A stretch of 64,000 bases of DNA from positions 5,022,001-5,086,000 of the forward strand of contig NZ_CP059165.1 of the NCBI RefSeq assembly GCF_013466425.1. The letters are read 5' to 3'. How positions within the stretch are numbered: the stretch's first letter is position 1; the number at the start of each line of letters is the position of its first letter. Below are positions 45,020 to 61,608 of the stretch, one piece after another. The notes beneath the pieces were generated by a model. It was not told the DNA's origin. It searched no databases and saw only the letters and a program-made list of their open reading frames with translations. The position numbers and the translations under genes were made by a program. This DNA is from Mycobacterium vicinigordonae (lineage in GTDB: Bacteria; Actinomycetota; Actinomycetes; Mycobacteriales; Mycobacteriaceae).

Positions 45020-46140
45020 GGTCGACCGCCTACCCCGTTGCCCATTAGATCGAGCATCTGAGTAAGCCCGAAGTCTGGGCCGTAGTCCCTCAGCGTCCCG
45101 GTGGCACAACCGAGTTGTTTTAGTCCCATGAGGTTGCAGATTTCCTTGCCGAACTGACTATTGAGCAGAGCCTTGTCGGTCACCAGGTGCATGCGGAAGC
45201 TTCCGGCGATCGGGTCTATGGAGTCGTAGATGTTATCGACTGCCAGCGGCGCCACATCGAGGACTTCCTCGAGCTCCCGGCGGTAATCAGTCATGGTTTG
45301 GGTGATAGTCCGGCTATCAGCGAACAAGTTCTTCAACCGCTCGCGGTTGCCCTCGAGCAGCCTGGCAGTTTCGGCAAGAATCAGGTTCGCCTTGGCGCCG
45401 GTGCTGCCCGATCCGAGATCCTCGGCGGCGAGGATGTCGCTGGTCTGGCGGAGGTTGGACGCGAATTGACGGATGGCAGTGTCATTGTCGGCGGCCGCCT
45501 GGGTGAGCTCGCTGAGGCTGTTGACGATCTCTTGAATGTCTTTCTTGCTGTGAGCGCCCTTATCTGGACCCACCCGCAGGGCCTGGGACAGCCTGTCGAG
45601 CGTCTCTCTGATCTTGGGACCGTTGGCGGAGGTGATTTGCGAGCCGAGGCTAATCAGGTCGCCGAGCGGCCCATGACCTTGGGAGTCGCCGCGAAGCGCC
45701 TTACCTAGCTTGTCGACCATAGACAGCGTCCGGTCGAATTCCACTGGTGTTCTGGTGCGTCCGAGGCCAAGGACATCACCATTTCTGAGCTTCGCGCCGC
45801 CACGGTAGGGAGGAGTGAGTTCGACGTGGCGGTCAGTCAGAATTGAATTCGATACAGTCACGGCTTTGACGTCCGCTGGTATATCGACCTCGTCATCGAC
45901 TGCGAGCTTTACCTCCACGTATGTGTCCTTGGAAATGACGCTAGTCACCCTCCCGACCTGCATTCCTAGAACCGCAACCGAGTTGCCTTCATAAAGCCCG
46001 ACAGCATCCTCGAATTGCGCGATGATGCTGATCTGTCCGTGATGTAGGCGGTGGGGAAGCCCGGCGCTTATACCGATGCCGATCAAGATTGCTGCGGTAG
46101 CGGTGAATGTTGCGACACTCACCTTGAGGGTCCGGCTCAT
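45016..46140 (-). CDS. mceD: Mce family protein MceD
   Basis: A 374-residue MCE protein: N-terminal helix VATFTATAAILIGIGI, MCE domain ISIIAQFEDAVGLYEGNSV with GMQVGRVTSV, a long helical needle region and a Gly-rich C-terminus. It overlaps mceC upstream and mceE downstream by 4 bases each (ATGA). This strict coupling suggests equal subunit synthesis. Confidence 0.9.
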   Translation of the reverse strand: MSRTLKVSVATFTATAAILIGIGISAGLPHRLHHGQISIIAQFEDAVGLYEGNSVAVLGMQVGRVTSVISKDTYVEVKLAVDDEVDIPADVKAVTVSNSILTDRHVELTPPYRGGAKLRNGDVLGLGRTRTPVEFDRTLSMVDKLGKALRGDSQGHGPLGDLISLGSQITSANGPKIRETLDRLSQALRVGPDKGAHSKKDIQEIVNSLSELTQAAADNDTAIRQFASNLRQTSDILAAEDLGSGSTGAKANLILAETARLLEGNRERLKNLFADSRTITQTMTDYRRELEEVLDVAPLAVDNIYDSIDPIAGSFRMHLVTDKALLNSQFGKEICNLMGLKQLGCATGTLRDYGPDFGLTQMLDLMGNGVGGRP

Positions 46141-47162
46141 TCGCAGTCCTTGAAGTATTCAACCAGGTTGAGCTGTTTGGCGCGCCCACTCAGCGCGCAC
46201 ATCCACGAGTCGACAAACGGACCGGCGGCGGCGTTGACATCGATGGCGTTACCGCTGCCGCTGATGTTGGCGAAATTGCGAACCGCGAGGGGCATTGATT
46301 GCATGACGTTTCGCAGTAGTGCGTCGTGGTCGACCATCATCCGGCTGAACTCTTGCGTATTGGCCATCAGCTGGTTGATTGCTGGCTCGTCACCCAAGAT
46401 CGTTCTAGCCCGATCGACGAGCTGGCTGGCGCTGGCGAACAAGCGTTGGACAGCCGCTCGTCGGGTCGCGATCTCGGCCAGTAGGTCGCGGCCTTGCAGG
46501 ACCAGTGCCCCAAGATCGGCCTTTTGATCACGCAGCATTCGGGTCAGCACATCGGCGTTAGCCAGCAAGGTACTGAGTTGACCGCGGCGATCCGAGATGA
46601 CGGTTGCCAGGCTGTGGAGGTTCTCGAGCGCTTGTGGCACGACGCCCGGTAGGTCCCGCAGATCGCGGTTCAGCGTCTTCACGGACTCGACCACGCGCTC
46701 TGCATCGATCGAATCGAAGGTGCTCGTTGCACCTGCGAGAGTCGCCTGCAGATCGTACGGAACTTCGGTGTTCGCTAAGGGGATCGTCGCGTTCTCGAGA
46801 GCATTGTTGCCAGCGGGCCTCAACTCGAAGTAGCGGGAACCCAGGATCGTGGTGAGTTTGATGGCCGCCGCCGTGTCCTTACCGAGGTGCACATCGCTGC
46901 GGACGCTGAAGTCAACAACTACGTGGTCACCTGCGAGTTTCACACCGTCGACAGTGCCAACCTGTATTCCGGCGATGGTGACTTGGTTGCCCTTTTTTAA
47001 CGCAGCGGCCTGCGCGAATTCGGCGTGATAGCGAGTCTTGCCCACCTTGAGGTTGCCGAACAAGACGACGCCCGCCAATACAGTTCCGATGACCGCCAAC
47101 GCGATCGACCCGAGCCATATCTTGTTGTAGGACTCGATTGGCCGCGTGAATCGCTCAAACAT
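46137..47162 (-). CDS. mceC: Mce family protein MceC
   Basis: A 341-residue MCE protein: helix LGSIALAVIGTVLAGVVLFG, MCE domain YHAEFAQAAALKKGNQVTIAG with GTVDGVKLAG, and a C-terminal CALSGRAKQLNLVEYFKDCE. ATG 47162 was chosen because AGGTAGG, which contains the mceB stop, lies just upstream. It is part of the eight-gene yrbE/mce core. Confidence 0.9.
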   Translation of the reverse strand: MFERFTRPIESYNKIWLGSIALAVIGTVLAGVVLFGNLKVGKTRYHAEFAQAAALKKGNQVTIAGIQVGTVDGVKLAGDHVVVDFSVRSDVHLGKDTAAAIKLTTILGSRYFELRPAGNNALENATIPLANTEVPYDLQATLAGATSTFDSIDAERVVESVKTLNRDLRDLPGVVPQALENLHSLATVISDRRGQLSTLLANADVLTRMLRDQKADLGALVLQGRDLLAEIATRRAAVQRLFASASQLVDRARTILGDEPAINQLMANTQEFSRMMVDHDALLRNVMQSMPLAVRNFANISGSGNAIDVNAAAGPFVDSWMCALSGRAKQLNLVEYFKDCE

Positions 47163-47167
47163 GTTGC

Positions 47168-48211
47168 CTACCTGCATATCGCGCTGTGTTTGGTCTGGTT
47201 GCCTGGCGTAGTCCAGGCAATGAAGGCCCGGAACCAGTTGTAAAGCCCGCGCCACAGGCCGAAGTCGAGGTCGCATGCGTACGCGTTGGCGTACGTTCCG
47301 TCTTGCATAATGCGGGCCATCCCCTTAAGCAGCAATGGCAAATTTGCGGCCATATAGGCAAATCGCTGGCGCCCCTCGTGCACGCTGTAGCTGAGAAATC
47401 CGGGTTGTCGGCCAATGAACTCTTGCGCATCGGGAGCAATGTTCTCAACGATTGTCGACAACCGTCCGACCGTCGAATTGATCGAACCTACCGATGCGAC
47501 CAACGTCTGCCGGCGCTGCGCCAGTTCTGCCATCACTGAGCGTGTTTCGCGGATCACGGTCTGGAGGTTCGTGTCCTGCGACGCCAAGCTTTCCATTAGC
47601 CCATTGAGATTGCCGATGAGATCGCCGAGCACCTGGTCTGGTCCGGCTAGCGTTTCTGCCAAGGCCGACGCCTGGGTGGTGAGCTCGAGGATCGAACCTG
47701 AATCCCCCTCTAACGCTTCGATGACAGCGCTCGTCAAGTTGTCCACCTGTTTGGGGTCCAATTGGGTGAATAGCGGCTCGAATCCATTGAGCAAGTACGA
47801 AATGTCAAATGATGGATTGGTCCGTTCTTTGGGAATTTGATCATGGTCCCGCAACGGTAGGCGCTGGTCAGACGGCCCTTGTGACAATCCAAGATAGCGC
47901 TGACCTATCGCGTTCTGGTAAGTCACCGAAGCGATGGTGTTCGTGTAGAGGACCTGTCCGCGTTGCACTCGGAACGTAACCTTGGCGAGGTTGCCAACCA
48001 ACTCAACTTTGTCCACCCGGCCGACCCGAACGCCCGCAACCCGAACATCATCGCCGGGTTTCATGCCGGAGACATCGGTGAAAATCGCGGTATAGGTGCT
48101 CGTTGACCCCGCGACGTCGCGCTGCAAGGTGGCGAGCACCATCCAACTCGCGCTAATCGCGAAGGCCATGAAAACAGCCAAGCCGATCACTGGCTTGCGA
48201 TATTTCTTCAC
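47168..48211 (-). CDS. mceB: Mce family protein MceB
   Basis: A 347-residue MCE protein: helix VIGLAVFMAFAISASWMVL, MCE domain YTAIFTDVSGMKPGDDVRVAG with GRVDKVELVG, and GLYNWFRAFIAW near the C-terminus. Its start overlaps the mceA stop by 4 bases. It is part of the same operon as the permease genes. Confidence 0.9.
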   Translation of the reverse strand: MKKYRKPVIGLAVFMAFAISASWMVLATLQRDVAGSTSTYTAIFTDVSGMKPGDDVRVAGVRVGRVDKVELVGNLAKVTFRVQRGQVLYTNTIASVTYQNAIGQRYLGLSQGPSDQRLPLRDHDQIPKERTNPSFDISYLLNGFEPLFTQLDPKQVDNLTSAVIEALEGDSGSILELTTQASALAETLAGPDQVLGDLIGNLNGLMESLASQDTNLQTVIRETRSVMAELAQRRQTLVASVGSINSTVGRLSTIVENIAPDAQEFIGRQPGFLSYSVHEGRQRFAYMAANLPLLLKGMARIMQDGTYANAYACDLDFGLWRGLYNWFRAFIAWTTPGNQTKHSAICR

Positions 48212-49707
48212 GGCTTATCCTTCGGTTCAGGCACGATGCTTACGTTGGCGCCGCGCGCCAAGGGCCCTAGTAGCAGTTCGATGGCGGGATCGATCCGCCC
48301 TCCAGCGATGAACGCAAGCTGCTGTTTCTCTTGACGACTACCGACCGGGCCGACGTTGCCGCCGATGACGCTCGGCTGGGGTGGCGCGCCAGGCGGTGCA
48401 GGGACTGCCGACGATTCGGGTGGCTGCGACTGGGGCGCCGGCGCGTTCGGCGCCGACGGCGGAGTCTCCTGGGGTGGACCGGGCAGTGGCGGTTCGTCGG
48501 GCGCCCCACGAGTGGAACGGCTCGGCGGTGCTAAGTTCGGTCGGTTTTCAGTCAGCCCCGGCGAGGGAGGATAACCCATCGACCCCAGTGCTGGTATCAG
48601 ATCTGGAGCTGTGGGCACTTCGGGTGCCGTCAGGCAACTTGGACCTATTAGCGCTCCATAGCGGGGGCAGTCGGCACGAATGTAGGTCCGGCTGGGAGTT
48701 AATCCGAGGACGATGTGGGCGATGGGGACTTTCCTCACGGGATCCCATGCCTCGTCGTAGTATTTGTTCGCGAGTAATTGCATCCGGGTGGAGACACCAT
48801 GAAATTCTCCAGCGTGATCGGCAATCACACCCAACGCCGGTGTCATTTCCGTACTGATAGTGATTAATCGATCCATCTGATGATCAAAGCCGTCAGCGAG
48901 CGTCCCGGCCGTGCCAAGCCCGCCGGATAGGAAGTTTGTTAACTGCCAACGCTTCTCGGCGAGGGTTCGCATGGGACGGATCGAGCTGTCTAGTGCGTCG
49001 AAGAGTTCCGGAGATACTTGGCGGAGGCCATCGGCCGCCGCTGTCAATGCAGACAGGGTGGACGGGCTCGAATCATCAAGGCCAATAACAGAATTCAGCT
49101 GCGCAAGGATCTCGTTTAACTCGTGGCCAGCGGTGGTCAATTGCCGGCCACGGCCGTGGGTTGCCTTACCCAACGCTGTTAACATCCCGATACTGTTATC
49201 GTCGGGCTGGCGCGCTACGTTGACGAGCAGTTGTCGCAGTCTCGTCAATACGTCCTGGAAGAGCACCGTCGGCCGGCTTCGGTCTTCGTAAACCACTGAA
49301 CCCGAGCGCAAAGAGCCCGAACCGCTTCCGTTGTCGACCAGCTGCACTGCCGACACCGCGAAAAGGTTGGCTGGCACCACACGCGCAGTCACGTTGTTGG
49401 GAATCCCAGACGCGTATCGGGGATTGAGCATCACATGTACACGGTTGGGCCCACCGTGCTGGGAGGGGGTGACCTCCGACACGGAACCCACTAGGGCGCC
49501 ACGAAATTTCACGTCAGAACTCGCCGGCAGACCGTCTCCGATGTTAACCAGGTCGATCTCGATCGCGACCAGGTCGTCGAATTTGCCTCTGGATTTGGCG
49601 ATCATCAGCCCCGCGACGATGACACAAACCACCACAAAACACGCACCCAGGGCCAAAAGCCGGGGGTTGGACGGGCTTCGTGGATTGAGGTCGAACGAGT
49701 TCGGCAT
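48208..49707 (-). CDS. mceA: Mce family protein MceA with proline-rich tail
   Basis: A 499-residue MCE protein: helix LLALGACFVVVCVIVAGLMI, MCE domain IEIDLVNIGDGLPASSDV with GALVGSVSEV, helical region, and an unusually Pro/Ala/Ser-rich segment (about residues 365-455) before a hydrophobic end. ATG 49707 starts 3 bases after the yrbEB stop, which rejects the 99-residue extension over that gene. The Pro-rich region may span the cell wall; this is inference. Confidence 0.9.
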   Translation of the reverse strand: MPNSFDLNPRSPSNPRLLALGACFVVVCVIVAGLMIAKSRGKFDDLVAIEIDLVNIGDGLPASSDVKFRGALVGSVSEVTPSQHGGPNRVHVMLNPRYASGIPNNVTARVVPANLFAVSAVQLVDNGSGSGSLRSGSVVYEDRSRPTVLFQDVLTRLRQLLVNVARQPDDNSIGMLTALGKATHGRGRQLTTAGHELNEILAQLNSVIGLDDSSPSTLSALTAAADGLRQVSPELFDALDSSIRPMRTLAEKRWQLTNFLSGGLGTAGTLADGFDHQMDRLITISTEMTPALGVIADHAGEFHGVSTRMQLLANKYYDEAWDPVRKVPIAHIVLGLTPSRTYIRADCPRYGALIGPSCLTAPEVPTAPDLIPALGSMGYPPSPGLTENRPNLAPPSRSTRGAPDEPPLPGPPQETPPSAPNAPAPQSQPPESSAVPAPPGAPPQPSVIGGNVGPVGSRQEKQQLAFIAGGRIDPAIELLLGPLARGANVSIVPEPKDKP

Positions 49708-49709
49708 CG

Positions 49710-50567
49710 CTACCCACCGAACCTCGCGCCGCCCTCGACGCCCCACAGCGCCAGCGTCAGCAACATGTTGACGATGATGACGGCGGTGAGACTTGCGCGC
49801 ATAGCTCGCCCCGCGGCAACCCCCACTCCGGCCGGCCCCCCGGTCGCGAAGAATCCGTAATAGCTTTGGATTGTCGACGAGATGAAGACGAATACAACGG
49901 CTTTGATGGTCGCGTACGACACATCCCGAGCGCTGATGAATAGCGAGAAATAGTGGAGATACGACCCGACTGACTGACCCGCAATTGTGCTGACGACCTG
50001 ACAAGCCAAGAAAGCCAACGCTAAAGCTGTCAGGAACAATGGAGCGGCGGCAATAACCGATGCTAATACGCGGACCGTCACCAGATACGGGATGGGGCGC
50101 AGCGCCATCGCCTCGATGGCATCGATTTCCTCGTTAATCCGCATCGCGCCCAATTGTGCAGTGAAGCGGCATCCCGCCTGGGCAATGAAGGCCGTGGCAA
50201 CCATGATTGGCGCCAGTTCACGGGTGGTCGCGAACGAGGAGACCATACCAGTGGCCGGGCCCATCCCCAGCAAATTCAGGGCGTTGTATCCCTCGACTGC
50301 TACCAATCCTCCGGCACTCATTCCCATCACGATTGCGACGTTGACCGTGCCGCCGCCAACGACGATCGATCCGTTCCCCCATGAGATGTCTGCTAACAGC
50401 CGCAGCATTTCTCGCCGATAGTTACGGCGCAATTTCGGGACCCCGGCAACGACCTGACCGAAGAAATAGAGTAAATGTCCGGCTTTTGCCACTGTCTGGC
50501 CCACGGTGGCCGCGCTCTGAATGACCGGGCGAGCGCCCGGGAGCTGAAAGGTTGCTGGATTGGCCAT
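49710..50567 (-). CDS. yrbEB: YrbE-family permease B (MlaE-like)
   Basis: A 285-residue MlaE-family membrane protein with about five helices. The family motif is visible as EEIDAIEAMALRPIPYLVTVR, the coupling-helix region thought to contact the MceG ATPase. With YrbEA it forms the inner-membrane permease of an Mce lipid importer. The ATG follows the yrbEA stop by 3 bases. No MceG ATPase gene is in the window. Confidence 0.92.
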   Translation of the reverse strand: MANPATFQLPGARPVIQSAATVGQTVAKAGHLLYFFGQVVAGVPKLRRNYRREMLRLLADISWGNGSIVVGGGTVNVAIVMGMSAGGLVAVEGYNALNLLGMGPATGMVSSFATTRELAPIMVATAFIAQAGCRFTAQLGAMRINEEIDAIEAMALRPIPYLVTVRVLASVIAAAPLFLTALALAFLACQVVSTIAGQSVGSYLHYFSLFISARDVSYATIKAVVFVFISSTIQSYYGFFATGGPAGVGVAAGRAMRASLTAVIIVNMLLTLALWGVEGGARFGG

Positions 50568-50570
50568 GGT

Positions 50571-51437
50571 CTAGAGCGTCTGCCGAGGAAAGACGATGAC
50601 GTAGTACTCGCTCAAGACCAAGTTGACGATCATCAACAGCAGTACGGATTCGACTACGGCGGAGTTAACGGAATTGGCTACGCCCGCCGGGCCGCCTCGG
50701 GTGTCCAGTCCCTTATGACAACCAATCACTGCAACGATCGTGCCGAAGACCACCGCTTTCACCATGGCAAGCATCAGGTCCCCGACGGTGGCGAACGACG
50801 AGAACGTTGCCACGAACGAACCCGGCGTGCCGTTCTGGAAGTACACGTTGAACAGGTAGCTGCCGACGTAACCGACAAAGGCGGTCACCCCGGTGAGTAG
50901 CATCCCGATCAAAATCAGCGCGGCAAGCCGGGGAACCACTAGCCGTCGAACCGGCGAAACTCCCATTACCTCCATCGCTTGAATTTCTTCTCGCATCGTC
51001 CGTGAACCCAGGTCTGCACAGACTGCTGAACCCACCGCGGAGGCGAGCAGCAGCGCCGCAACCAGCGGAGCGCCCTGCCGGATCACCGCAAGTCCAGTCG
51101 CCGCGCCCGCCAACGAGGTCGCGCCAACTTGGCCGGCCAAGAAGCCGAACTGGACGCACAATGTGACGCTGATCGGGATGGTGATGAGAACCGTTGGGGT
51201 AAAAGCGGTTGAGGCCATGAACGCCGCCTGCTCGATGAACTCCCCGATCATGAAGCGGCCGGTGAATAGGTCGAAGAACAGATACTGAATAGCCCGGGCA
51301 CCCAACATCACCTGGCCGCCCACCGTGCCCAGCGACATCAAAGGATGATTTTGCAGATAGCGCTGAATCCAGCTGATGATCTCGCTAGGAGCCGAGCCCC
51401 GCGTTAACGACTGGGCCGGGTCTGTGGACGTAGTCAA
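50571..51437 (-). CDS. yrbEA: YrbE-family permease A (MlaE-like)
   Basis: A 288-residue MlaE-family permease: MREEIQAMEVMGVSPVRRLVVPR is the EExxAxxxMG-type motif, and GPAGVANSV precedes the last helix. It starts the 11-gene mce operon. I chose TTG 51437 because GAGGGGG lies five bases upstream and the length fits. The ribosome-binding site and start are tandemly duplicated (51434-51473), leaving a 7-codon leader frame whose TGA stop overlaps this TTG. An in-frame extension to 51548 is unlikely. Confidence 0.88.
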   Translation of the reverse strand: MTTSTDPAQSLTRGSAPSEIISWIQRYLQNHPLMSLGTVGGQVMLGARAIQYLFFDLFTGRFMIGEFIEQAAFMASTAFTPTVLITIPISVTLCVQFGFLAGQVGATSLAGAATGLAVIRQGAPLVAALLLASAVGSAVCADLGSRTMREEIQAMEVMGVSPVRRLVVPRLAALILIGMLLTGVTAFVGYVGSYLFNVYFQNGTPGSFVATFSSFATVGDLMLAMVKAVVFGTIVAVIGCHKGLDTRGGPAGVANSVNSAVVESVLLLMIVNLVLSEYYVIVFPRQTL

Positions 51438-51473
51438 CGAATCCCCCTCGTTGTCAACGAATCCCCCTCGTTT
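51434..51473 (-). repeat. Tandem 20-base duplication of ribosome-binding site plus TTG start
   Basis: Two adjacent 20-base units (51434-51453 and 51454-51473) match at 19 of 20 positions; on the minus strand each holds GAGGGGGATTCGTTGAC. The upstream copy starts a leader frame at TTG 51457 that stops at TGA 51436-51434, overlapping the yrbEA TTG at 51437. Confidence 0.8.
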
Positions 51474-52100
51474 TTTCGGTATCTGAGAACTTCTTGTGCG
51501 GTGCCGTCGAGCGGATCGAAGGTCAAGCGAGGCTGAATACGCTTTCATGCCATCGATTTACCGCTCGGCCCGGCGCCTGCATCGTGGAACGCAACTGTGG
51601 TCTGTCGAGTGGTCACGCCTCGTTCGACTCTGATTGCTTCTCCTTAGCGTGGGGCTCGACGCCGCGATCATTGCCACGAGGCTAGCGACCCCACGCACCC
51701 GCTGGATGTGCAAATATTGCGCACCGCAGGGCGTCACCCGCCGAACACAACAATCGCGAAACACACATAGACGTCGGCCGGTCTCAGGCGGGTGTCACGG
51801 CTCGGGTAACCGGGATTCGGCTCAGCTAGTCAGTGATGCTGGCGAGAAAGCGGTGCAGGTTCATCACTGTGTTCTTGACGCTCATCCGTTGAGTCGCTTT
51901 TCGTTTGGCCCGCGTCGATACAGGTGTTAGGTCGCAGACACGCCGCGCTTCGATGGTCCGGCGGTTGGTCGTTCCGTCCGGCACAGCGGATGGGGTGCCC
52001 GCAGTGATCGCAGTCGCCACGACCACACCCGACTCGACCATGACGCGACTAACACCACCGCGATGCACCGAGACTGACGACCAGTGCGGATCAGTAGCCC
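51474..52100. other. Intergenic region upstream of the mce operon
   Basis: About 630 bases separate the yrbEA leader from the SDR gene end. No credible gene is present; an 80-codon minus-strand frame at 51826-52068 has no recognisable domain or ribosome-binding site. The mce promoter must lie here. I saw no KstR-type AAC-GTT palindrome. Confidence 0.4.
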
Positions 52101-52922
52101 TTATTTGACAACGAAACCGGCGTCGACCGGAAGCGTCACCCCGGTGACGTAGCGCGCCTGGTCTGAGACCAGCCAGGCGATGGCGTTGCTGATGTCAATG
52201 GCCTCGACGGCCTCGACCGGCAACAGGTTAGTGAGCGCGCCGGCGATATCGGGGCTCAGAGCCAGAAAACCCGCCATGGCGTCGTTGAGAATCATTGGCG
52301 TCGACACCCCCGTCGGGTGCACCGTGTTGACCCGGATCCGGTGCGGTGCAAGCCAGTTCGCCCACGACCGCATGAGACCGACGACGGCGTGCTTGCTCGC
52401 CACGTACCCGTCGCCCGCTCCGGTCCCGGTGCCGCCACGACCGGTGAGGCCTTGGGTCGAACTAGTGATGACAATCGAGCCACCTTCGCCCCCGGCGATG
52501 ATCGCCGGTACGGCGGCGTGCACAGTGTGCCGCACGCCCGTCAGGTTGATCGCCACGGTGTCATGGAACACGGCCAGAGCGTCCTTTTCATCTGCGCTGT
52601 GCGGTGAGATGCCCGCGTTGGCCAAGACGATGTCGAGCCTGCCCAACTCAGCGACACCGGCGTCTACCACAGCCGCCACGGCCGCAGGGTCGCGAACGTC
52701 GGCCTGCCGGGCGAAGATCCGCCGGTCGAGCTTCTCGACCAGTACCACCGTCTCGTCGAGATCCTCGACAGTCGCCATCGGGTAGGGGACCGTCTCGAGT
52801 TGTCTACAGATATCGAGGGCAATGATGTCCGCGCCCTCTTGGGCCAGCCGCAGCGCGTGGCTGCGGCCCTGGCCGCGGGCAGCACCGGTAATTAGGGCGA
52901 CCTTGCCCGACAGGCTTCCCAT
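52101..52922 (-). CDS. Mycofactocin-coupled-type SDR oxidoreductase
   Basis: A 273-residue SDR: cofactor loop TGAARGQGRSHA, NAG motif LANAGISP, catalytic Ser in VITSSTQG, and YVASKHAVVG with the YxxxK pair. The insertion after the second beta strand (DICRQLETVPYPMATVEDLDETV) is typical of the mycofactocin-associated SDR subfamily, where NAD is bound tightly. GGAGGAG lies five bases before ATG 52922. It follows the SnoaL-FMO fusion gene by 41 bases and is likely cotranscribed. Confidence 0.87.
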   Translation of the reverse strand: MGSLSGKVALITGAARGQGRSHALRLAQEGADIIALDICRQLETVPYPMATVEDLDETVVLVEKLDRRIFARQADVRDPAAVAAVVDAGVAELGRLDIVLANAGISPHSADEKDALAVFHDTVAINLTGVRHTVHAAVPAIIAGGEGGSIVITSSTQGLTGRGGTGTGAGDGYVASKHAVVGLMRSWANWLAPHRIRVNTVHPTGVSTPMILNDAMAGFLALSPDIAGALTNLLPVEAVEAIDISNAIAWLVSDQARYVTGVTLPVDAGFVVK

Positions 52923-52963
52923 AGCACTCCTCCATTTGTCCCTCTGGCGTCGGTCTGGCTTCC

Positions 52964-54796
52964 TCAAGCGGTGTGGTGCACGGTCTGCAACCCATAGACA
53001 GGTGTCGGGATGCCCTCGTGACGAGCCTTGAGCTGCAGCGCGAGAAATAACGAGTAGTAGCGGGAGAAGTGCAGGTTGCCGCCGTGAAACCAGAGGCCTG
53101 GCTGGCGAGTGGGCTTCCACATGTTGCGCTGCTCGCCTTCCCAGGGCCCGGGGTCCTTCGCGGTGTCCGAGCCAAGGCCCCACACCCGGCCAACCTTGTC
53201 GGCGACCTCCTGGTTGATCAGGTCGGACACCCGACTGTTCATAGGCTCGAAACCAGTCGCGTAGACGATCAGGTCGGCTGGCAGATTAGTGCCGTCCTCG
53301 AGAACCACTGATCGCTCGGTAATCTCGCGCACACCCTTCCCCGACTGCAGTGCGATGCTGCCGTTGGCGACCAGCTCCGAAGCCCCGACGTCGATGTAGT
53401 AGCCCGAGCCGCGCCGTAGGTATTTGAGGAAGAGGCCCGAGTCGTCCTCCCCGAAATCGAGCAGGAAGCCGACCTTCTCTAGCCGCGCGTAAAACTCGGC
53501 ATCGCGTTCACGGATCGCGTCGCTGATCGGCTTCTGGAGCAGGTGCATGATCCGGTAAGGCTGGGAGGCGAAGATCGTGTCCGCCCGGTGGGTCGTCATA
53601 CCGGCCGCCAGGGCCCGCTCGGAGTAGAGGTCACCCAGGCCGATCTCAACGATCGACTCGGATTTCACAACCAGGCTGCTACTGCGCTGCACCATCGTGA
53701 CGTCGGCCCCGTACTCCCATAACGCCGCGCAGATGTCGTGAGCGGAGTTGTTTGAACCGATCACGACGGCCTTCTTGCCGCGGTAACCGTCTGGCCCTGG
53801 GTGCCGGGAGGAATGGTGCTGCTCGCCGACGAACCGGTCGGCTCCAGGGAAAGCGGGAATGGCAGGCTTGCCGGACACGCCCGTGGCCAACACCAACTGC
53901 TTGGGACGCAAGCTGACCGGTGTTCCGTCACGGACGACCTCGACGGTCCATTCGCGTCCTGCTTGGTCATAGGCGGCGCCCACGCATTCAGAGGAACCCC
54001 AGTAGTTCAGTTCCATTGTGGTGGCGTAGAACTCAAGCCAGTCACCGAGCTTGTCCTTTGGGGTGAACACCGGCCAAGTCTTGGGGAACTCGAGATACGG
54101 CAGGTGGTCGTACCACACGGGGTCGTGCAGGCAGAGGGACTTGTAGCGGTTGCGCCAGGAGTCCCCCGGCCTTGCATTGCGTTCCAGGATGATCGTCGGG
54201 ACCCCAAGCTGGCGCAGCCTCGCTCCGAGGATGATCCCGCCCTGGCCCCCGCCGATGATGACCACCTCGGGCTGAGTGCCGTAACCAAGTTCGCGAGCTT
54301 CCTTTTGCCGACGCTCCAACCAGCTCACCCGATTGGTGGCGACGCCGTGCTCCGTACCCTTGGGACGGCGTTCCCCCTGGGGCTCCTCGAATCCCTTGAG
54401 CTCATGCAGGGCAGTGAGGAGCGTCCACGCTCTCCCGTCACGCAGCCGTAGCAGCCCGTGCCCACGACCGACCGCAGTCTCGAACAGGAACCGAGCGCTG
54501 ATGATGCCGTCGGCCTCGTCCGCGCCCCCTTCAGCGACATCGAGGGCGAAGCGCGCGGGTCGGACGTTTGCCAGGACGCTGTCCAGCATCGCTGTGATCT
54601 CGGCACGCCCGTCGAGGCTCTTAATGTTCCAGGTGAAGGCGACCAGATCCCGCCAATGGCTTTCTTCGTGAAACAGCCCGGCCGCGGCCGCGGTGTCGCC
54701 AGCGGCGAGGGTTCGCTCAAGGTCGGCGAGCCAGCGAGTTGCGGTGCTCTCGGCAGGCTTCACGGCTCGCGAGTTGCGGTCGATCGTCTGGGTCAT
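52964..54796 (-). CDS. SnoaL-like domain fused to flavin monooxygenase
   Basis: A 610-residue two-domain protein. Residues 15-140 are a SnoaL/NTF2-like domain (LERTLAAGDTAAAAGLFHEESHWRDLVAFTW). The C-terminal 450 residues are a YUCCA-like FAD monooxygenase with GGGQGG and the NADPH motif region VVIGSNNSAHDI, then VYATGFEP. It lacks the FxGxxxHxxxW BVMO fingerprint, so it is more likely an N- or C-hydroxylating enzyme. ATG 54796 has GAAGGGGAG eight bases upstream. The divergent PucR-type gene probably controls it. Confidence 0.85.
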   Translation of the reverse strand: MTQTIDRNSRAVKPAESTATRWLADLERTLAAGDTAAAAGLFHEESHWRDLVAFTWNIKSLDGRAEITAMLDSVLANVRPARFALDVAEGGADEADGIISARFLFETAVGRGHGLLRLRDGRAWTLLTALHELKGFEEPQGERRPKGTEHGVATNRVSWLERRQKEARELGYGTQPEVVIIGGGQGGIILGARLRQLGVPTIILERNARPGDSWRNRYKSLCLHDPVWYDHLPYLEFPKTWPVFTPKDKLGDWLEFYATTMELNYWGSSECVGAAYDQAGREWTVEVVRDGTPVSLRPKQLVLATGVSGKPAIPAFPGADRFVGEQHHSSRHPGPDGYRGKKAVVIGSNNSAHDICAALWEYGADVTMVQRSSSLVVKSESIVEIGLGDLYSERALAAGMTTHRADTIFASQPYRIMHLLQKPISDAIRERDAEFYARLEKVGFLLDFGEDDSGLFLKYLRRGSGYYIDVGASELVANGSIALQSGKGVREITERSVVLEDGTNLPADLIVYATGFEPMNSRVSDLINQEVADKVGRVWGLGSDTAKDPGPWEGEQRNMWKPTRQPGLWFHGGNLHFSRYYSLFLALQLKARHEGIPTPVYGLQTVHHTA

Positions 54797-54962
54797 AGGT
54801 GGGCTCCCCTTCGAGGTGGCGATCGGCACCTCTTAATGCTGCGGGCGCCCCGCCTGCCGGACAATGTCGCAGGCTGCCCAGGACGCGCGAAAGATTTGGC
54901 ACCGCCGCACAATCCGGTCGGCGGCGCTGGTTCCGCCTGCATCCGCGAACTATCCTCGCGAC

Positions 54963-56669
54963 ATGCCACCGACATCTCTACAACAGGATCTCGTCGCCGA
55001 CGTCGCTGACCATGAGATGGCTCCGGCCGCTGCGCCCGTGCAGGGGCTGCTCCGCAGGCTGCTCGTTGCACCCTCGGTGACCGCCGCAACCCAGGCCTTG
55101 GTAGACACCGTGCACGAGTGCTTCCATTGCGACGTGAGCTGGTCCGGCATCGTATCGGAGGGCTTCCTCATGATGGCCGCCTACAACGGCATCCGTACCC
55201 CCGAGATGATGGCGCTGTGGCGCCTCGAGGTTGGGCAGGGCGTAGGCGGCCGGGTCGCGAAGCAGGGGCGGACCATATCCGCCCGGGACTACCGTCGTGA
55301 TCCACGGCGGGTACCGGTCATGAAGTCGGTGATCGACGCGGAGGGCGTTCGCAGCGCGATCTGCGCTCCGTTACTCAGCGGCGCCGAGGTCCTCGGCGTT
55401 GTCTACGCGGCCTGCCGACGGGTCCGCGACTGGACCGAAGACGAGGTTGCGTTGCTGACCATGATGGGTCGCGACACCGGTGTCGCACTGGCGAGAATCG
55501 CGCAACACCATAGTGAACAGGAGCGCGCGGAGCAGGCCCGTCGCGCGACAACAGCCGCCCACGACGCACTGCAGGCGCTGCGATCCATCGCCGAGGCCGT
55601 GGCCTGCTCGGATGACCTCGGCGCCGGCGTGGACGTGCTGGCCCACCACCTTGGGATGCGCGTAGAACTGCTCGACCAGGCAGGCGTACAGCTACTCGCC
55701 TCGCCCGCGAACGTAGGCACCGAAGCGCCGATCCAGTGGGAGGACGACCTAGGTGGGGCTGATCTTGGGACCCTGCGCGTGCGATGGTCACGTGGACTTC
55801 GCCCGAGCGAGATCGAGCTGGCCGCCGTGGGCGCGCAGATCATAGGGCTACAGATCCTTCGCGCTCGTGCGGGTTTGCGCGCGGAGATCCGACTGCACAG
55901 CGAACTGCTGAACGATTTGCTCGACGGACACGTGGCCGATCTGCGTGCGATCAGGGATCGGGCGAGCCTACTCGGGTTCGACCTTGCCCAGCCACGCCAT
56001 GTGGCTTGCATCGGCGCCCACCGTGGACCAAATCCGCGGGAACAGCACGAGCTAGGGCACGGCTTGGCCGCCGCCGAATCAGTGATCAGCTCTTGGTTCC
56101 CGAATGCCTTCATCGTGCCGCGCACCGACGAGCTCGTCGCGCTGATCGACTCTGACTCCGCACCGTCGCACGAGATCCATGCGGTTCTGCAGCAGGCTGT
56201 CTGCGACCACCGCCTAGCCGCGCCCGGCCTTGCCGCGGGAGTTGGACGGATGTGCATGGGCCCGTCAGACTACGCCGACTCTTATGCCGACGCGGCGCTC
56301 GGTCTCGACGTCGCGCGGCGACGAGCACGCCCAGGGGAGGTGCTGTCGTCAGCCGACCTGGGTCTCTACGGGTTGTTCGGTCACGGCGGCAGCCGCAAGT
56401 CGCTCGAATCGATGGTCGAGCGGGCGCTAGGGCCCCTCATCGAGGCGGACGCGGACGGTGGTTCGGCGTACGTGAAGTCGTTGCACGCCTACCTGATCTG
56501 TGACCGACACCTTGAGCGGGCGGCGGCCATGCTGCACATCCATCCCAACACCGTGCGCTACCGCCTTACCAAGATCCGCGAGATCCTAGGCGTGGATCTG
56601 CACGACGTAGAGAAGCGCTTCCTGCTCGAGCTCGCGCTGCGCGTCCAGTCGGTGCTCGGCGAAGACTGA
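54963..56669 (+). CDS. GAF-domain PucR-type transcriptional regulator
   Basis: A 568-residue regulator: N-terminal GAF domain (VDTVHECFHCDVSW to GVVYAACRRVRDW), a coiled segment (HSEQERAEQARRAT), a middle CdaR/GGDEF-like region, and a C-terminal PucR helix-turn-helix (HLERAAAMLHIHPNTVRYRLTKIREIL). ATG 54963 was chosen for the length. It is divergent from the FMO operon (166-base gap) and its 3' end overlaps the cofD-like gene by 104 bases on the opposite strand. It would respond to a small ligand bound by the GAF domain. Confidence 0.83.
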   Translation: MPPTSLQQDLVADVADHEMAPAAAPVQGLLRRLLVAPSVTAATQALVDTVHECFHCDVSWSGIVSEGFLMMAAYNGIRTPEMMALWRLEVGQGVGGRVAKQGRTISARDYRRDPRRVPVMKSVIDAEGVRSAICAPLLSGAEVLGVVYAACRRVRDWTEDEVALLTMMGRDTGVALARIAQHHSEQERAEQARRATTAAHDALQALRSIAEAVACSDDLGAGVDVLAHHLGMRVELLDQAGVQLLASPANVGTEAPIQWEDDLGGADLGTLRVRWSRGLRPSEIELAAVGAQIIGLQILRARAGLRAEIRLHSELLNDLLDGHVADLRAIRDRASLLGFDLAQPRHVACIGAHRGPNPREQHELGHGLAAAESVISSWFPNAFIVPRTDELVALIDSDSAPSHEIHAVLQQAVCDHRLAAPGLAAGVGRMCMGPSDYADSYADAALGLDVARRRARPGEVLSSADLGLYGLFGHGGSRKSLESMVERALGPLIEADADGGSAYVKSLHAYLICDRHLERAAAMLHIHPNTVRYRLTKIREILGVDLHDVEKRFLLELALRVQSVLGED

Positions 56670-57627
56670 GGGCGGCGAGCAGTTCCTCCGGCGCCACGCC
56701 TGTGTGCAGAAGGGTCCGGGCCAGCACGACTTCCAATCCCAGCGCCCGGATCGCCGGCGCGAAACTAGCGTCCGCGGTGTCCAGCACGAAACGGTGGCAA
56801 ATGTCGGCGTACCTGCTGGCGACGCCCAGCGGATCAGCGCTCCCGCCGACCGCACGCAACAACGCGGCTCGACTGGCCGCCCGCCTCGCCTCGCCCGCAT
56901 CAGCGATCGGCACACCCAGCACGATGGGTGACACACCGACTACATGTGCAAGGGAATCTCTGACTGCCGCGCGGACTCCATGAACGCCGAGGATCGGGTC
57001 CAGGCTGGCCACGGGATTGCTCGGTGCGAGTACGACGAGGTCGGCCCGGGCGATCGCCTCCAACACACCGGGCGCGGGAACGGCGTGCTCGAGCCCTTCG
57101 TAGTGCACCGTGACGACCTGCGGCACGGCCGCAAGCCGCACGAGGAACTCGACGTAGCTCACGTGGCCGTGCTCGGCCGTGGTCAGCCGTGTGGTGACCA
57201 CGTGGTCGCTCATCGGCAGGACGGTCGACTGGACCCCCATCGCCGTTGCCAACCGGCGTGTTACTTCTGACAGCGCGGATCCCCCACGCAAAAGGTCGGT
57301 GCGTAGCAGATGCGTGGCGAGGTCGACGTCGCCCAGGTTGAACCAGACCTCCTCGCCGAGGCCCCGCAGCGCATGCATCGTTCGCCACGACTCGTCGCGA
57401 ACGCCCCAGCCTCGCTGGAGATCGTGTCGATCCGACAGCGAGTAGAGCGTGGTGTCGATGTCGGGGCTCACGCGCAGGCCGTAGGCCCACAGGTCATCGG
57501 CGGTGTTGACCACCACAGTCAGCGCTAGTGACGGCTCAGCCTCGACTAACGCGCGCCACAACCGCGATGCGCCGATTCCACCGCCCAGCCCGACGACCCG
57601 AGCCGGACGTACCTCGCGGTGAGGCAT
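56566..57627 (-). CDS. CofD/FbiA-like 2-phospho-L-lactate transferase paralogue
   Basis: A 353-residue protein with FbiA/CofD motifs: GLGGGIGASRLW at the N-terminus, NTADDLWAYGLRVSPDIDT, and WFNLGDVDLATHLLRTDLL. CofD-family enzymes transfer a phospholactate or phosphoenolpyruvate group to the deazaflavin Fo in F420 synthesis. Mycobacterial housekeeping fbiA normally sits with fbiB; here it is last in an acyl-CoA-ligase/thiolase/nitroreductase operon, so it is a second copy. ATG 57627 lies 7 bases after the unknown gene. Confidence 0.8.
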   Translation of the reverse strand: MPHREVRPARVVGLGGGIGASRLWRALVEAEPSLALTVVVNTADDLWAYGLRVSPDIDTTLYSLSDRHDLQRGWGVRDESWRTMHALRGLGEEVWFNLGDVDLATHLLRTDLLRGGSALSEVTRRLATAMGVQSTVLPMSDHVVTTRLTTAEHGHVSYVEFLVRLAAVPQVVTVHYEGLEHAVPAPGVLEAIARADLVVLAPSNPVASLDPILGVHGVRAAVRDSLAHVVGVSPIVLGVPIADAGEARRAASRAALLRAVGGSADPLGVASRYADICHRFVLDTADASFAPAIRALGLEVVLARTLLHTGVAPEELLAALSLRRAPTGRAARARAGSASLRRADPRLGSRGSW

Positions 57628-57634
57628 CAGCTCT

Positions 57635-57997
57635 CTAGCCTCGCGTCCACACCCCGCCCTGAATGAGAACGCCGTTGTGGATGAGGAAGCTGCGTACGAC
57701 ATTTGCGTTGACGACGGCCTCTTTGCCCGACCAGCCCTGCCGATCAACATACGAGGCGATCAACTCATTGACGGCGACTCGCCGCTTCGTGCTGAGGAAT
57801 CGCTCTCCTGTCTCCCTCTTCCTGAGGAAGCAAAACTCGACCAGCGCATCGGGGCTCAACTCCGCGTGCGACAAAAATCCCCAGAGGACCTGCAGGAACC
57901 GGCCTCGCACTTCGGCATCAGCCCTATCATGCCCGGTCGCCTCCAGCCAACGCCGCACGCGCGGGTGGTCGGCCAGGCCGGTTGGGCCATCGTTCAC
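57635..57997 (-). CDS. Conserved-looking hypothetical protein
   Basis: I do not recognise this 120-residue protein. The start is GTG 57997, overlapping the nitroreductase stop as GTGA. The sequence is charged and helical with DAEVRGRFLQVLWGFLSHAE, CFLRKRETGERFLSTKRR and VRSFLIHNGVLIQGGVW. There is no signal peptide or membrane segment. Its tight placement between the nitroreductase and CofD-like genes suggests work with them, possibly on a cofactor-related step. Confidence 0.7.
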   Translation of the reverse strand: MNDGPTGLADHPRVRRWLEATGHDRADAEVRGRFLQVLWGFLSHAELSPDALVEFCFLRKRETGERFLSTKRRVAVNELIASYVDRQGWSGKEAVVNANVVRSFLIHNGVLIQGGVWTRG

Positions 57998-58782
57998 AGC
58001 GGCAGCCCAAAGCGGTCCGCCAGCGCCCGGATCTCCGTCTGGCGGGCGGCGATGTCGCCCTCCATCGATGGTTGGATCATCCCCTCCTGACGCAGTCGCG
58101 CGGTGACCGCCGGGTCCTCCTCCCACGGCACTCCGTACCTACCACGGAAAAAGTGCTCACTCAACGGTCGACGCGGCCGTTGGCCACCGGCAAGCCGGTC
58201 CTCGGCGGGGTAGCCCACCAGCAGCGCCCACATCGGGATCCACGTATCCGGGACCTTCAGCACCTCGCGCGCCACGTCGACGTTGAACGCCGAAAGCCCG
58301 ACACCGAGACCTTCGTCAACGGCGGCCAACATCGCCTGGTTGATCGCCAAGCCGCATTCGACGGAGACCATCCATGCGTTGACAGCAGGGTCCGCGGCGA
58401 CCGCCTTCACCACCTGACCGTATGCAACTTCGTCGACGTAGGCATGCGACCACCCGTGAGTGGGCGCCAGTGCTCCCAAATCCACCAGTTCCTTGAGCCG
58501 CTCCCGCCCGCCGATGTGGTACTCGGTGTCGCCCCACCAGAAGATCACGACCGGAGCGAGCTCCAGCTGTACCGTGCTTGTGGGAGTCTTGAGTTGCTCT
58601 CGCACCTCATCGGGCAACTCGTCCCGATAGCAGACGACCGCTTTGACGAAGTCTCCGTTCACCGACCGCGACGACCGATTGGCCGCCTCGAGCATGACCT
58701 GGATCTTCGCCTCCTCGACCGGCTCCTCCGGTTCAAAGAACCGGATAGTCCGACGGTCACCGACTACCTGCTTGAACTCCAT
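57994..58782 (-). CDS. Nitroreductase-family FMN oxidoreductase
   Basis: A 262-residue protein with the nitroreductase start DRRTIRFFEPEEPV (FMN phosphate-binding Arg residues), AANRSSRSVNG, and GLGVGLSAFN and LLVGYP in the C-terminal half. The extension after GYP (YGVPWEEDPAVTARLRQEG) is longer than usual. ATG 58782 follows GGGACGG. The nitroreductase fold is also the C-terminal domain of FbiB, which reduces dehydro-F420; its operon partner here is a CofD-like gene. Its substrate may therefore be a deazaflavin or a pathway intermediate. Confidence 0.78.
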   Translation of the reverse strand: MEFKQVVGDRRTIRFFEPEEPVEEAKIQVMLEAANRSSRSVNGDFVKAVVCYRDELPDEVREQLKTPTSTVQLELAPVVIFWWGDTEYHIGGRERLKELVDLGALAPTHGWSHAYVDEVAYGQVVKAVAADPAVNAWMVSVECGLAINQAMLAAVDEGLGVGLSAFNVDVAREVLKVPDTWIPMWALLVGYPAEDRLAGGQRPRRPLSEHFFRGRYGVPWEEDPAVTARLRQEGMIQPSMEGDIAARQTEIRALADRFGLPL

Positions 58783-58822
58783 TGTCCGTCCCTTCGTGTT
58801 GGGTACCCGGGCCGACGCCGAC

Positions 58823-60031
58823 TCAGGTCGACAGAATGGTGATGACCGCGGCCGCGCCGTCTGCGCCGAGGTAGCCTCCGGCGTTTTGGGCCAGCGCGAC
58901 GCGGGCCCCTTCAACCTGGCGTGCGCCACACCGCCCCCGGAGCTGGTCGGCGAGTTCAACGATCTGCGCGCAACCGGTGGCGCCGATCGGGTGGCCTTTC
59001 GATAACAGTCCGCCGCTGGGGTTGACGACCGTCGATCCGCCAAGTCGGGTCCGCCCAGAACGCAGCAGCCCCGGTCCGCCGCCGGGCGCGCACAATCCGA
59101 GTTCCTCGTAGGCGACGAGCTCAGCAGGAGCTGCGGCGTCATGCAACTCGATTACATCCAAATCGTAAGGGCCGATCCCGGCCGCCTCGTACGCCTGAAC
59201 TGCGGCGCGCTCAACTGATCCCGGCTGGTCGCGATCGCGCTCGGTTCCGGAGGTGAGCACGGTGCTGCGGACGCGAACCGACGGCCCGGCGCGCCGCGCC
59301 GCGCGCGCGGGCGAACACACCACGACTGCGGCGGCACCGTCGCCAATCGGCGAGCACATCAACAATGTGAGCGGATCGGTCACGACCCGGCTCGACAGCA
59401 CTTCGCCCGCTGTCACCCGGCGACGGTACTGTGCCTTCGGATTGAGCGCCCCGTGGTAGTGGCTCTTCACCACCACTTCGGCGAAGTCTGCTGCGGTGGC
59501 TCCCGAGGCCCGCATATAATCCCGAGCGATCGAGGCATAAACATCCATGAAGAAGGATCGCTTGCCCTCGTCGACCGGTGTGTCACCTGCGACACGACGT
59601 CGGATCATATCGAGCTCGAACAAATCGACGGCTGAACCGATGGCGTCGAACGCGCGAGTTTTGTCCGGGTCTGTGAGCTTTTCCGCCCCGACAGCGATCG
59701 CGACGTCGTACGCGCCGGACGCCACCGAGGAGACAGCGAGGTTCAGAGCCGTCGACGCCGATGCGCAGGCGTTCTCCACATTGACGATGGGAAGACCGAG
59801 CAGTCCAGTGCGTCGCAGCGCAGCCTGACCGCGGATCATCTCCTGCCCGCTCATCAAACCGGCGACAGCGTTGCCGAAAAACACGATGCCGACTTCGTCG
59901 GGGCTCATCGCAGCGTCTCCCAACGCCTCCGCGACCGCGGCCTCGGCCAACTCCCGGATCGTGCTCTGCGGCCATTTGCCGAATGCAGTCATGCCTGTGC
60001 CTACAATCCGGACCGTTCCGGCTTCGTTCAT
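58823..60031 (-). CDS. Thiolase-family / lipid-transfer-like protein
   Basis: A 402-residue thiolase-fold protein: nucleophile Cys89 in VENACASAS, HDAAAPAELVAYEELG (the SCP2-thiolase-type HD region) and GHPIGATGCAQI with the catalytic His. The last Cys motif of classical thiolases (CxG) is replaced by AQNAGG. This pattern resembles SCP2-thiolases and aldolase-like mycobacterial thiolases acting on large acyl-CoAs such as sterol side chains. ATG 60031 overlaps the ligase gene stop as ATGA. Confidence 0.83.
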   Translation of the reverse strand: MNEAGTVRIVGTGMTAFGKWPQSTIRELAEAAVAEALGDAAMSPDEVGIVFFGNAVAGLMSGQEMIRGQAALRRTGLLGLPIVNVENACASASTALNLAVSSVASGAYDVAIAVGAEKLTDPDKTRAFDAIGSAVDLFELDMIRRRVAGDTPVDEGKRSFFMDVYASIARDYMRASGATAADFAEVVVKSHYHGALNPKAQYRRRVTAGEVLSSRVVTDPLTLLMCSPIGDGAAAVVVCSPARAARRAGPSVRVRSTVLTSGTERDRDQPGSVERAAVQAYEAAGIGPYDLDVIELHDAAAPAELVAYEELGLCAPGGGPGLLRSGRTRLGGSTVVNPSGGLLSKGHPIGATGCAQIVELADQLRGRCGARQVEGARVALAQNAGGYLGADGAAAVITILST

Positions 60032-61608
60032 CGCCTCGCCCTTCTTTGTGCATCCATCCGGTAGCCCGCCGCCTCTCGGTCCCACGTTCCTGACGTGAGG
60101 CCGCGCCCTCTGAGGACTCCGTACTGGTTGCGTTCCGTCGCGGTCTTGGGCAGCGCGTCAACGATCTCGACGTAGCGCGGCACGGCGTAGTGGGCCATCC
60201 GCCCAATGCAGAAGTCGATCACTTCCTCAGGCGTGAATCGCGCGCCGACCTTCGGAACGATGCAGACTTTCACTTCGTCCTCGCCGTTCGGAGATTCCAC
60301 CGCATGCGCGGCACAATCGAGAACGCCTGGATGGGCGTCAAGAGCGGACTCAATCTCCCATGCTGAGATGTTCTCGCCGAGCCTTCGAATTGACTCTTTG
60401 CGCCGCCCGCGGTAGTAGAAATGCCCTTCCGAGTCAACCTCGGCCAGATCGCCGGAATGGAACCAGCCGCCTCGGTATGCGCGCTCGGTCAGCGCCGGAA
60501 GTTTGTGGTAGCTGGTCAGCCTGCCCCGCGGATGACGGAACACCAACTCCCCGACCCGACCGGCCGGCAGCGGCCGGTCGCGATCGTCGACCACAGCGAA
60601 CTCGACGTCTGCGATGCCCGAACGGCCCATGGAGCCGACACGGCCTTCGGAATTTAGCAGAATCCCCGGTGCATCGACCATGCCGAACCACTCGACGATC
60701 CGTACCCCGAAACGCTTCTCGAACTCCCGCCAGCGGCCAGGAGGGCATCCTGCGGAGAGGACGGTTTTCACTCGATGGTCGCGATCGCGCGGGCTAGGTG
60801 GCTGCTTGAGCAGTATGGAGATCATCCCACCGAGCGAGTTGAACTCGACGGCGTCGTAGCGTCGACAGTCGTCCCACAGACCAGAGGCGGTGAACTTCGG
60901 CGCCAGCGCCAGCTTCGCGTCCAGCATGATCGAGCCGAGCATAGAAACCAACAACGCGTTGCCGTGGAATAGCGGCAAGCCGGTGTACATCGTCTCGCCA
61001 GGCTGCACCCGCGATGCGTCGAGCAGTCGACGGATCGGTGTGAGGTCGTAGTGGTGCGCGACAACACCCTTGGGCGGTCCTGTCGTGCCCGAGGTGTACA
61101 TCATGCCGATCCCCCCACCGGGATCGGTGATCTCGACGTCGGGCTCGGCGTCCGACCCGGCCAGCAGGCGGGGTACATCTGCATCGACGTCTGGCCCCAG
61201 CGGTCCATCTACTACTACCAGTCGGCGCAGGGCAGTTAGGTGGCGCGAGACGCTGTGCACCACATCGCGCAGGTTGTTTTCGAAAACGATCGCCACCGCG
61301 TCGCAGTCATGAAGGATGTGAGCCAATGCCGCTCCACGCTGCGAAATGTTGATCGGAACCGATCGTGCGCCGATGAAGGCGACACCCAGGTACAGCCAGA
61401 TGAACTCAGGTCGATTGGACATCATGAGCGCGACACGTTCACCTGGCTTTACGCCAAGCTCCAGCAGTCCGTTCGCGGCGCGCCGCGCGTAGGACAGCAC
61501 CTCGCGCCATGAGATCTCTTCGTCGCGCCACTTCAGCCACACGGCATCGGGGTGTTCGGCCACCCGCACGCGCACGAGATCCTCCACGACACCGCGTGCT
61601 CGACCCAT
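60028..61608 (-). CDS. Acyl-CoA synthetase (AMP-forming)
   Basis: A 526-residue ANL enzyme: P-loop YTSGTTGPPKGV, GMVDAPG (A5), SGDLAEVDSEG (A7), GRRKESIRRLGENISAWEIE (A8) and a divergent A10 region ALPKTATERNQYG, where the usual TGK motif reads TER. The catalytic Lys is not clear there, so activity needs verification. I chose ATG 61608, with GGGAG upstream; a 59-residue extension is not credible. It is the first gene of the operon ending in cofD. Confidence 0.8.
   Translation of the reverse strand: MGRARGVVEDLVRVRVAEHPDAVWLKWRDEEISWREVLSYARRAANGLLELGVKPGERVALMMSNRPEFIWLYLGVAFIGARSVPINISQRGAALAHILHDCDAVAIVFENNLRDVVHSVSRHLTALRRLVVVDGPLGPDVDADVPRLLAGSDAEPDVEITDPGGGIGMMYTSGTTGPPKGVVAHHYDLTPIRRLLDASRVQPGETMYTGLPLFHGNALLVSMLGSIMLDAKLALAPKFTASGLWDDCRRYDAVEFNSLGGMISILLKQPPSPRDRDHRVKTVLSAGCPPGRWREFEKRFGVRIVEWFGMVDAPGILLNSEGRVGSMGRSGIADVEFAVVDDRDRPLPAGRVGELVFRHPRGRLTSYHKLPALTERAYRGGWFHSGDLAEVDSEGHFYYRGRRKESIRRLGENISAWEIESALDAHPGVLDCAAHAVESPNGEDEVKVCIVPKVGARFTPEEVIDFCIGRMAHYAVPRYVEIVDALPKTATERNQYGVLRGRGLTSGTWDREAAGYRMDAQRRARR

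Follow-up and report, generated by a model that had tools for sequence, protein, structure and literature searches.

A nitroreductase pair and a second CofD in a coenzyme A ester operon of Mycobacterium vicinigordonae: a candidate consumer of coenzyme F420

Why would an operon of coenzyme A (CoA) ester genes carry its own copy of cofD, which belongs to the coenzyme F420 pathway? This question is raised by a locus of Mycobacterium vicinigordonae, in a stretch of 64,000 nucleotides (the window, at 5.022-5.086 Mb of a genome that is a single contig of 6.27 Mb). Five genes on its minus strand encode an acyl-CoA ligase (60028-61608, 526 residues), a thiolase of the SCP2/BbsB type (58823-60031, 402 residues), a nitroreductase-fold protein (NTR; 57994-58782, 262 residues), a 120-residue protein (57635-57994, with a GTG start), and a second CofD/FbiA paralog, which we call CofD2 (56566-57627, 353 residues). 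The explanation that we favor, to which we give a little under an even chance, is that the NTR and the 120-residue protein make up a two-component F420-linked flavoenzyme within a regulated CoA-ester catabolic module, and that CofD2 raises the supply of F420.

A previous reading of the same DNA from its letters alone (the sequence-only reading) had described these genes as one operon of acyl-CoA-type genes, a nitroreductase, and a CofD homolog. The junctions it gave were all confirmed: the ligase and thiolase genes overlap (ATGA), 40 bases separate the thiolase gene from the NTR gene, the NTR gene overlaps the 120-residue gene (GTGA), and 7 bases separate the latter from cofD. Pfam backs four of the gene assignments, with AMP-binding (PF00501, 209.6 bits) and AMP-binding_C in the ligase, Thiolase_C_1 (126.7 bits) in the thiolase, the nitroreductase family (PF00881, 46.1 bits; cut-off 23.5) in the NTR, and CofD (PF01933, 150.2 bits; cut-off 30) in CofD2. 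The 120-residue protein has no Pfam match.

What the sequence-only reading missed is that the conserved core of the operon is the NTR together with the 120-residue protein. When genome contigs were scanned with an alignment of the 120-residue family, blind to the NTR, 39 loci emerged; the groups given in their titles include Actinobacteria, Deltaproteobacteria, Gammaproteobacteria, Chloroflexi, Acidobacteria, and Tectomicrobia. Genome searches added 8 loci (L053-L058, L062, and L063), for a total of 48 hits at 47 loci, not counting the window. For 44 of the 48 hits, the 120-residue gene is preceded, in the same orientation and at a distance of 11-282 bases, by an NTR match, and these NTRs belong to one subfamily. 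The exceptions are L021 (near a contig end), L023 (whose nearest NTR is on the opposite strand, at a distance of 3.3 kb), L041, and L063. Beyond these 48 hits, L131 (genome G1257) has an NTR upstream, L132 has none in a short stretch, and a weak hit in L059 lacks an adjacent NTR. The small protein had been expected to co-occur with both nitroreductase and CofD-like genes; the first partner is there, directly upstream, but CofD was found at just 5 of the 47 loci. The pair also has CoA-ester genes as neighbors: relatives of the thiolase are near 20 loci, of the ligase near 16, and acyl-CoA dehydrogenases near 12. The gene order ligase-thiolase-NTR-120-residue protein recurs in L004, L005, L011, L053, and L062.

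The 120-residue protein is encoded by a real gene, with 122 database proteins at E ≤ 1e-3 (including the window's own). Structure prediction gives it a fold that appears similar to the tyrosine recombinase core-binding domain (as in XerA, IntI, and Cre). Unlike those enzymes, it has no tyrosine recombinase catalytic domain; the 120 residues correspond to the core-binding-like part only. Comparing profiles of the family to solved structures and scanning its members against Pfam gave no significant sequence link to recombinases: one member per alignment matched Phage_int_SAM_4, with E = 0.053, among other rows at the level of chance.

The NTR has the nitroreductase fold, with a predicted flavin mononucleotide (FMN) site and the arginines for the FMN phosphate. 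By analogy with AlbA, a nitroreductase-fold subunit of cyclodipeptide oxidase, these arginines probably bind FMN (available text of PMC11055893). Residues 217-262 of the NTR (57997-58134, minus strand) make up a C-terminal tail that lies outside most fold matches and has a conserved ending in NTRs that are beside the small protein. The tail is absent from the 208-residue NTR of L130 and the 222-residue NTR of L129, both of which have no small partner there. We propose that the tail is a docking element for the small protein. Separately, two tandem NTR genes precede the small gene in L034, L037, L040 (8235-10222), and L032 (2157-4156), which suggests that some NTRs are heteromeric.

The sequence-only reading had also likened the NTR to the part of FbiB that reduces dehydro-F420. 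The NTR does not look like a plain enzyme of this kind: its relation to the C-terminal domain of FbiB is only distant (29.5% identity over 105 residues), it scores far below the cut-off for the FbiB family TIGR03553 (33.4 versus 249.55 bits), and unlike the C-terminal domain of FbiB or FbiE, it has a C-terminal tail and a small partner. In addition, all 8 genomes that were checked encode a full-length FbiB next to FbiA, and the NTR pair mostly occurs without CofD nearby. Another parallel is the cyclodipeptide oxidase AlbAB (CDOA and CDOB), which also combines a nitroreductase-fold subunit with a small helical partner from an adjacent gene, and whose subunit genes often overlap, according to the portion of PMC11055893 available to us. 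Foldseek matched the NTR to AlbA, among others, with E = 3e-9. However, CDOB belongs to PF19585, and the NTR-pair loci that we read carry CoA-ester genes. Two sets of proteins from the 120-residue family, with 31 and 26 members, gave no match to PF19585 at E ≤ 1. The structural matches listed for the 120-residue model do not include AlbB, and this is no evidence against the likeness.

We next consider CofD2. The window genome has three CofD-family genes: yvcK, between genes that appear to be rapZ and whiA; fbiA, adjoining fbiB; and cofD2. (Apart from the Pfam CofD match, the names of these genes and their neighbors were assigned by eye.) This rules out the window's gene as the only fbiA and agrees with the earlier claim of a second cofD copy. 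The identification as a CofD/FbiA homolog also stands: both aspartates that align with D45 and D57 of FbiA, which bind metal (as given in the accessible portion of PMC7253369), are present, and CofD2 retains all 36 of the residues that do not vary among 35 other proteins of the FbiA and CofD2 types, on which ground we rejected a dead copy. It scores 182.6 bits against the solved archaeal CofD and 174.4 bits against mycobacterial FbiA, and it fails the YvcK family TIGR01826 (40.6 bits; cut-off 196).

A tree of 49 proteins places the 9 copies of FbiA in a single, fully supported clade. The other CofD copies, including the window's, fall into several groups with weak forks between them and a warning of long branches, so we make no claim that CofD2 is monophyletic. 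Together with P0123, P0130, and P0172, the window's CofD2 makes up a supported group of four. Nine positions distinguish FbiA from the other 27 proteins, and the window's protein follows 8 of these. CofD2 agrees with CofD/FbiA (2-phospho-L-lactate or phosphoenolpyruvate transferase to Fo) in Pfam family and length and in its metal aspartates and invariant residues, but it lies outside the FbiA clade and is tied to FbiC and CoA-ester genes instead of FbiB. Two other CofD forms were seen. Genome G713 encodes a divergent, long-branch CofD about 2.3 kb behind an NTR-120-residue pair (L055, 6319-7293), which retains 31 of the 36 invariant residues; it is not CofD2 and may be another recruitment. 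The database proteins P0213 and P0217 have GTP cyclohydrolase II fused to a CofD2-type domain.

Some relatives of the operon carry more of the F420 pathway. In Pseudonocardia asaccharolytica (L004) and in a metagenome-assembled genome (MAG) of Actinophytocola (L005), the ligase-thiolase-NTR-120-residue set is followed by FbiC and CofD2, and both genomes also encode FbiA and another FbiC elsewhere. The CofD2 of L004 passes the NCBI equivalog TIGR01819, with 274 bits. The cluster of L005 includes a GTP cyclohydrolase II (207.2 bits; cut-off 205.85), a bifunctional CofGH-type FbiC (1022 bits; cut-off 1018), an intact F420-dependent glucose-6-phosphate dehydrogenase (FGD; TIGR03554, 555.1 bits; cut-off 420), and a periplasmic-binding-type protein. 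In G411 and G433, CofD2-FbiC is about 3.5 kb from the thiolase of an NTR-120-residue-ligase-thiolase set. Two further genomes, G450 and G480, have the order NTR-CofD2-FbiC (loci L129 and L130): their NTRs belong to the same subfamily (36% and 41% identical), and the FbiC is the only one that each genome encodes. Among contigs of at least 5 kb, 7 were common to the 42 listed for matches to the 120-residue protein and the 48 listed for matches to CofD, including the window and L005, versus a mean of 0.03 with shifted sizes; sharing was deduced from equal, hand-entered sizes. We consider the idea of a dedicated F420 supply partly supported: these relatives, with extra FbiC, GTP cyclohydrolase II, and FGD, strengthen it, and extra F420 genes cluster around the NTR-120-residue pair in some actinobacteria. 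Directly beyond CofD2-FbiC in G433 (L065, 14135-15370) and G411 (L064, 6670-7905) are mycofactocin maturation genes; the maturase in G433 matches TIGR03962 with 652.7 bits, and the copy in G411 was recognized by eye.

Does the pair go with F420 more broadly? In the 36 genomes behind L006-L042, which have the small protein and are mostly MAGs from mixed phyla, CofH, a marker of F420, exceeded its cut-off in 30; a 31st match, in G1088, has 350 bits and starts at a contig end. As background, CofH passed in 8 of 168 genomes from the phylum of L006's genome (including that genome, and one by 0.5 bits). Conversely, in 80 background genomes, the 120-residue family was found in 1 of 7 that are CofH-positive (G1257; the borderline genome is counted) and in none of the other 73. 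For L006-L010 and L012, CofH was present in 6 of 6 genomes versus 7 of 167 (Fisher's exact test, p = 5e-8), which is indicative only, and the reverse test gave p = 0.09; by their titles, these six are four Deltaproteobacteria, one Polyangiaceae, and one "uncultured bacterium," and only L006 is surely in the sampled phylum. F420 is made widely by mycobacteria, according to the available parts of a FEMS review (PMC8498797), and in the window's family, the 120-residue gene was found in 1 of 401 genomes (the window's own). The NTR-120-residue pair implies F420 but the reverse does not hold, which is the pattern of an F420 consumer.

If so, the operon would be a regulated CoA-ester catabolic module in which the ligase forms a CoA ester. 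The redox step would fall to the FMN-binding NTR in complex with the 120-residue subunit, with its recombinase-core-binding-like fold, held by the C-terminal tail of the NTR; this complex would reduce (or oxidize) the CoA ester with F420 as the electron carrier, and the thiolase would cleave a product. CofD2 would act as a second, functional transferase in the F420 pathway and would provide more F420 when the operon is on; relatives would add Fo synthase, GTP cyclohydrolase II, and FGD.

Several observations weigh against this proposal. We know of no nitroreductase-fold enzyme with F420H2 as its donor. CofD is near 5 of the 47 loci, as already noted, and FbiC is near 5 (in L019, partial and over 7 kb away). 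The window's CofD2 scores 247 bits against TIGR01819, below the cut-off of 257.45. The window genome has one strong match to FbiC, which is outside the operon; we rejected a second FbiC elsewhere in that genome. G965 has the operon without CofD2, and its CofD family consists of YvcK and FbiA only. The FGD of L004 (7944-8444) has lost about 163 internal residues, in frame, by a real deletion or an assembly fault. CofH was not found in G1080, G1083, G1085, or G1106, and G1100 has a trace of it. Finally, F420 is common in actinobacteria and in Chloroflexi (for the latter, see the accessible text of PMC8498797), and our background covers one phylum, not Chloroflexi. Besides these, the CofD family of G1024, which has the 120-residue gene, consists of YvcK and FbiA only.

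Among enzymes with the nitroreductase fold, most rely on FMN and NAD(P)H, and the pair might be an ordinary enzyme of this type, with CofD2 and the F420 genes hitchhiking or serving other enzymes and the co-occurrence arising from shared lineages or lifestyles. The absence of CofD near most pairs and the 6 of 36 genomes below the CofH cut-off fit this, as does the presence of CofD2-type proteins where no small protein was seen, such as in rows named Streptomyces (whose gene context was not read). However, the excess of CofH (30 of 36 versus 8 of 168) and the repeated linkage to CofD2 or FbiC (in L004, L005, L057/L065, L058/L064, L129, and L130) speak against it, and we consider it unlikely. 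We think it quite unlikely that the NTR acts in F420 biosynthesis itself, as a stand-alone FbiE-like dehydro-F420 reductase for a CofD2 route, with the 120-residue protein as an accessory and NTR-CofD2-FbiC as a compact F420 operon. The genomes with FbiB beside FbiA include G450 and G480, which have this gene order, and the neighbors of the pair are CoA-ester genes. Also, 5 or 6 of the 7 CofH-positive background genomes (one is borderline) lack the pair, as do 400 of the 401 genomes of the window's family, which argues that it does not catalyze a general step of biosynthesis.

It is very unlikely, in our view, that CofD2 makes a different deazaflavin, with another side-chain group, for the NTR pair. 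CofD homologs do choose among pathway intermediates (available portion of PMC8764529), FbiA forms a well-supported clade apart from the CofD2-type proteins, with 9 diagnostic positions, 8 of them followed by the window's protein, and the window's CofD2 matches archaeal CofD slightly better than FbiA. But its metal-binding and invariant residues are standard, and no extra CofC/FbiD or CofE was recognized in the clusters that we read, although no family-level search was made.

Returning to the F420-linked flavoenzyme, the pair could represent a new class of two-component F420H2-dependent enzymes that act on CoA esters, with a recombinase-type fold as a subunit, in actinobacteria, in bacteria labeled as Deltaproteobacteria or Chloroflexi, and in others. 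It may be one reason that F420 is retained in these producers of the cofactor, which have been little studied, and some actinobacterial operons may have captured a private supply (GTP cyclohydrolase II, FbiC, CofD2, and FGD). We view this broader claim as possible but somewhat doubtful. Why Proteobacteria and Chloroflexi make F420 is described as an open question in the accessible portion of the FEMS review (PMC8498797), and the NTR-120-residue pair is a testable candidate for an F420 consumer in such genomes. If the proposal is true, a DNA-recombinase-type fold has become an enzyme subunit, and a catabolic operon has its own cofactor supply. Term searches of an open-access library listed no paper whose title or displayed abstract covers this gene set; subscription journals and preprints were outside our scope.

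Counting the window genome each time, the 120-residue gene is in 3 of 397 genomes of the order and 7 of 394 of the class, and this rarity, as in the family, fits horizontal gain. The GC content of the window is 0.57-0.61 at 40-51 kb and higher, 0.66-0.67, at 54-60 kb.

As for the other parts of the operon, the solved structures nearest to the ligase are FadD5 and others, with no call of specificity, and the best match for the thiolase is benzoylsuccinyl-CoA thiolase (7pxp, E = 5e-62). A GAF/PucR-type regulator (54864-56669, plus strand; PF13556 and GAF) is convergent with cofD, and it overlaps the 3' end of cofD by 104 bases. Its relatives (50-53% identical) adjoin the operon elsewhere and are divergent, before the ligase gene, in L004, L005, and L062. 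At 7 of the 47 loci, either the PucR-type regulator or the NTR pair has an unannotated 471-residue family as its neighbor (L005, 136-1668; L062, 4102-5520; L011, 4721-6136; also L007, L012, L029, and L030). It has no match in Pfam or NCBIfam, and among solved structures, two nitroreductases matched at the level of chance (E = 1.2 and 1.7); it is possibly a remote nitroreductase-fold protein.

Pairs of CoA-transferase genes are near the NTR pair in L007 (7604-9408), L008 (10371-12187), L012 (14120-15936), L030 (1476-3352), and L032 (287-2079); PF01144 (CoA_trans) was shown in one A-type and one B-type representative. These may be similar to the ring hydrolase IpdA/IpdB of steroid ring degradation. 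In the window, beyond the regulator but in the same GC-rich block, the minus strand has a flavin monooxygenase-like gene (52964-54829), the start of which is weakly SnoaL-like, and a short-chain dehydrogenase-like open reading frame (52101-53183). The block is flanked by genes that by eye resemble Mce and YrbE transporter genes (46137-51548, minus strand).

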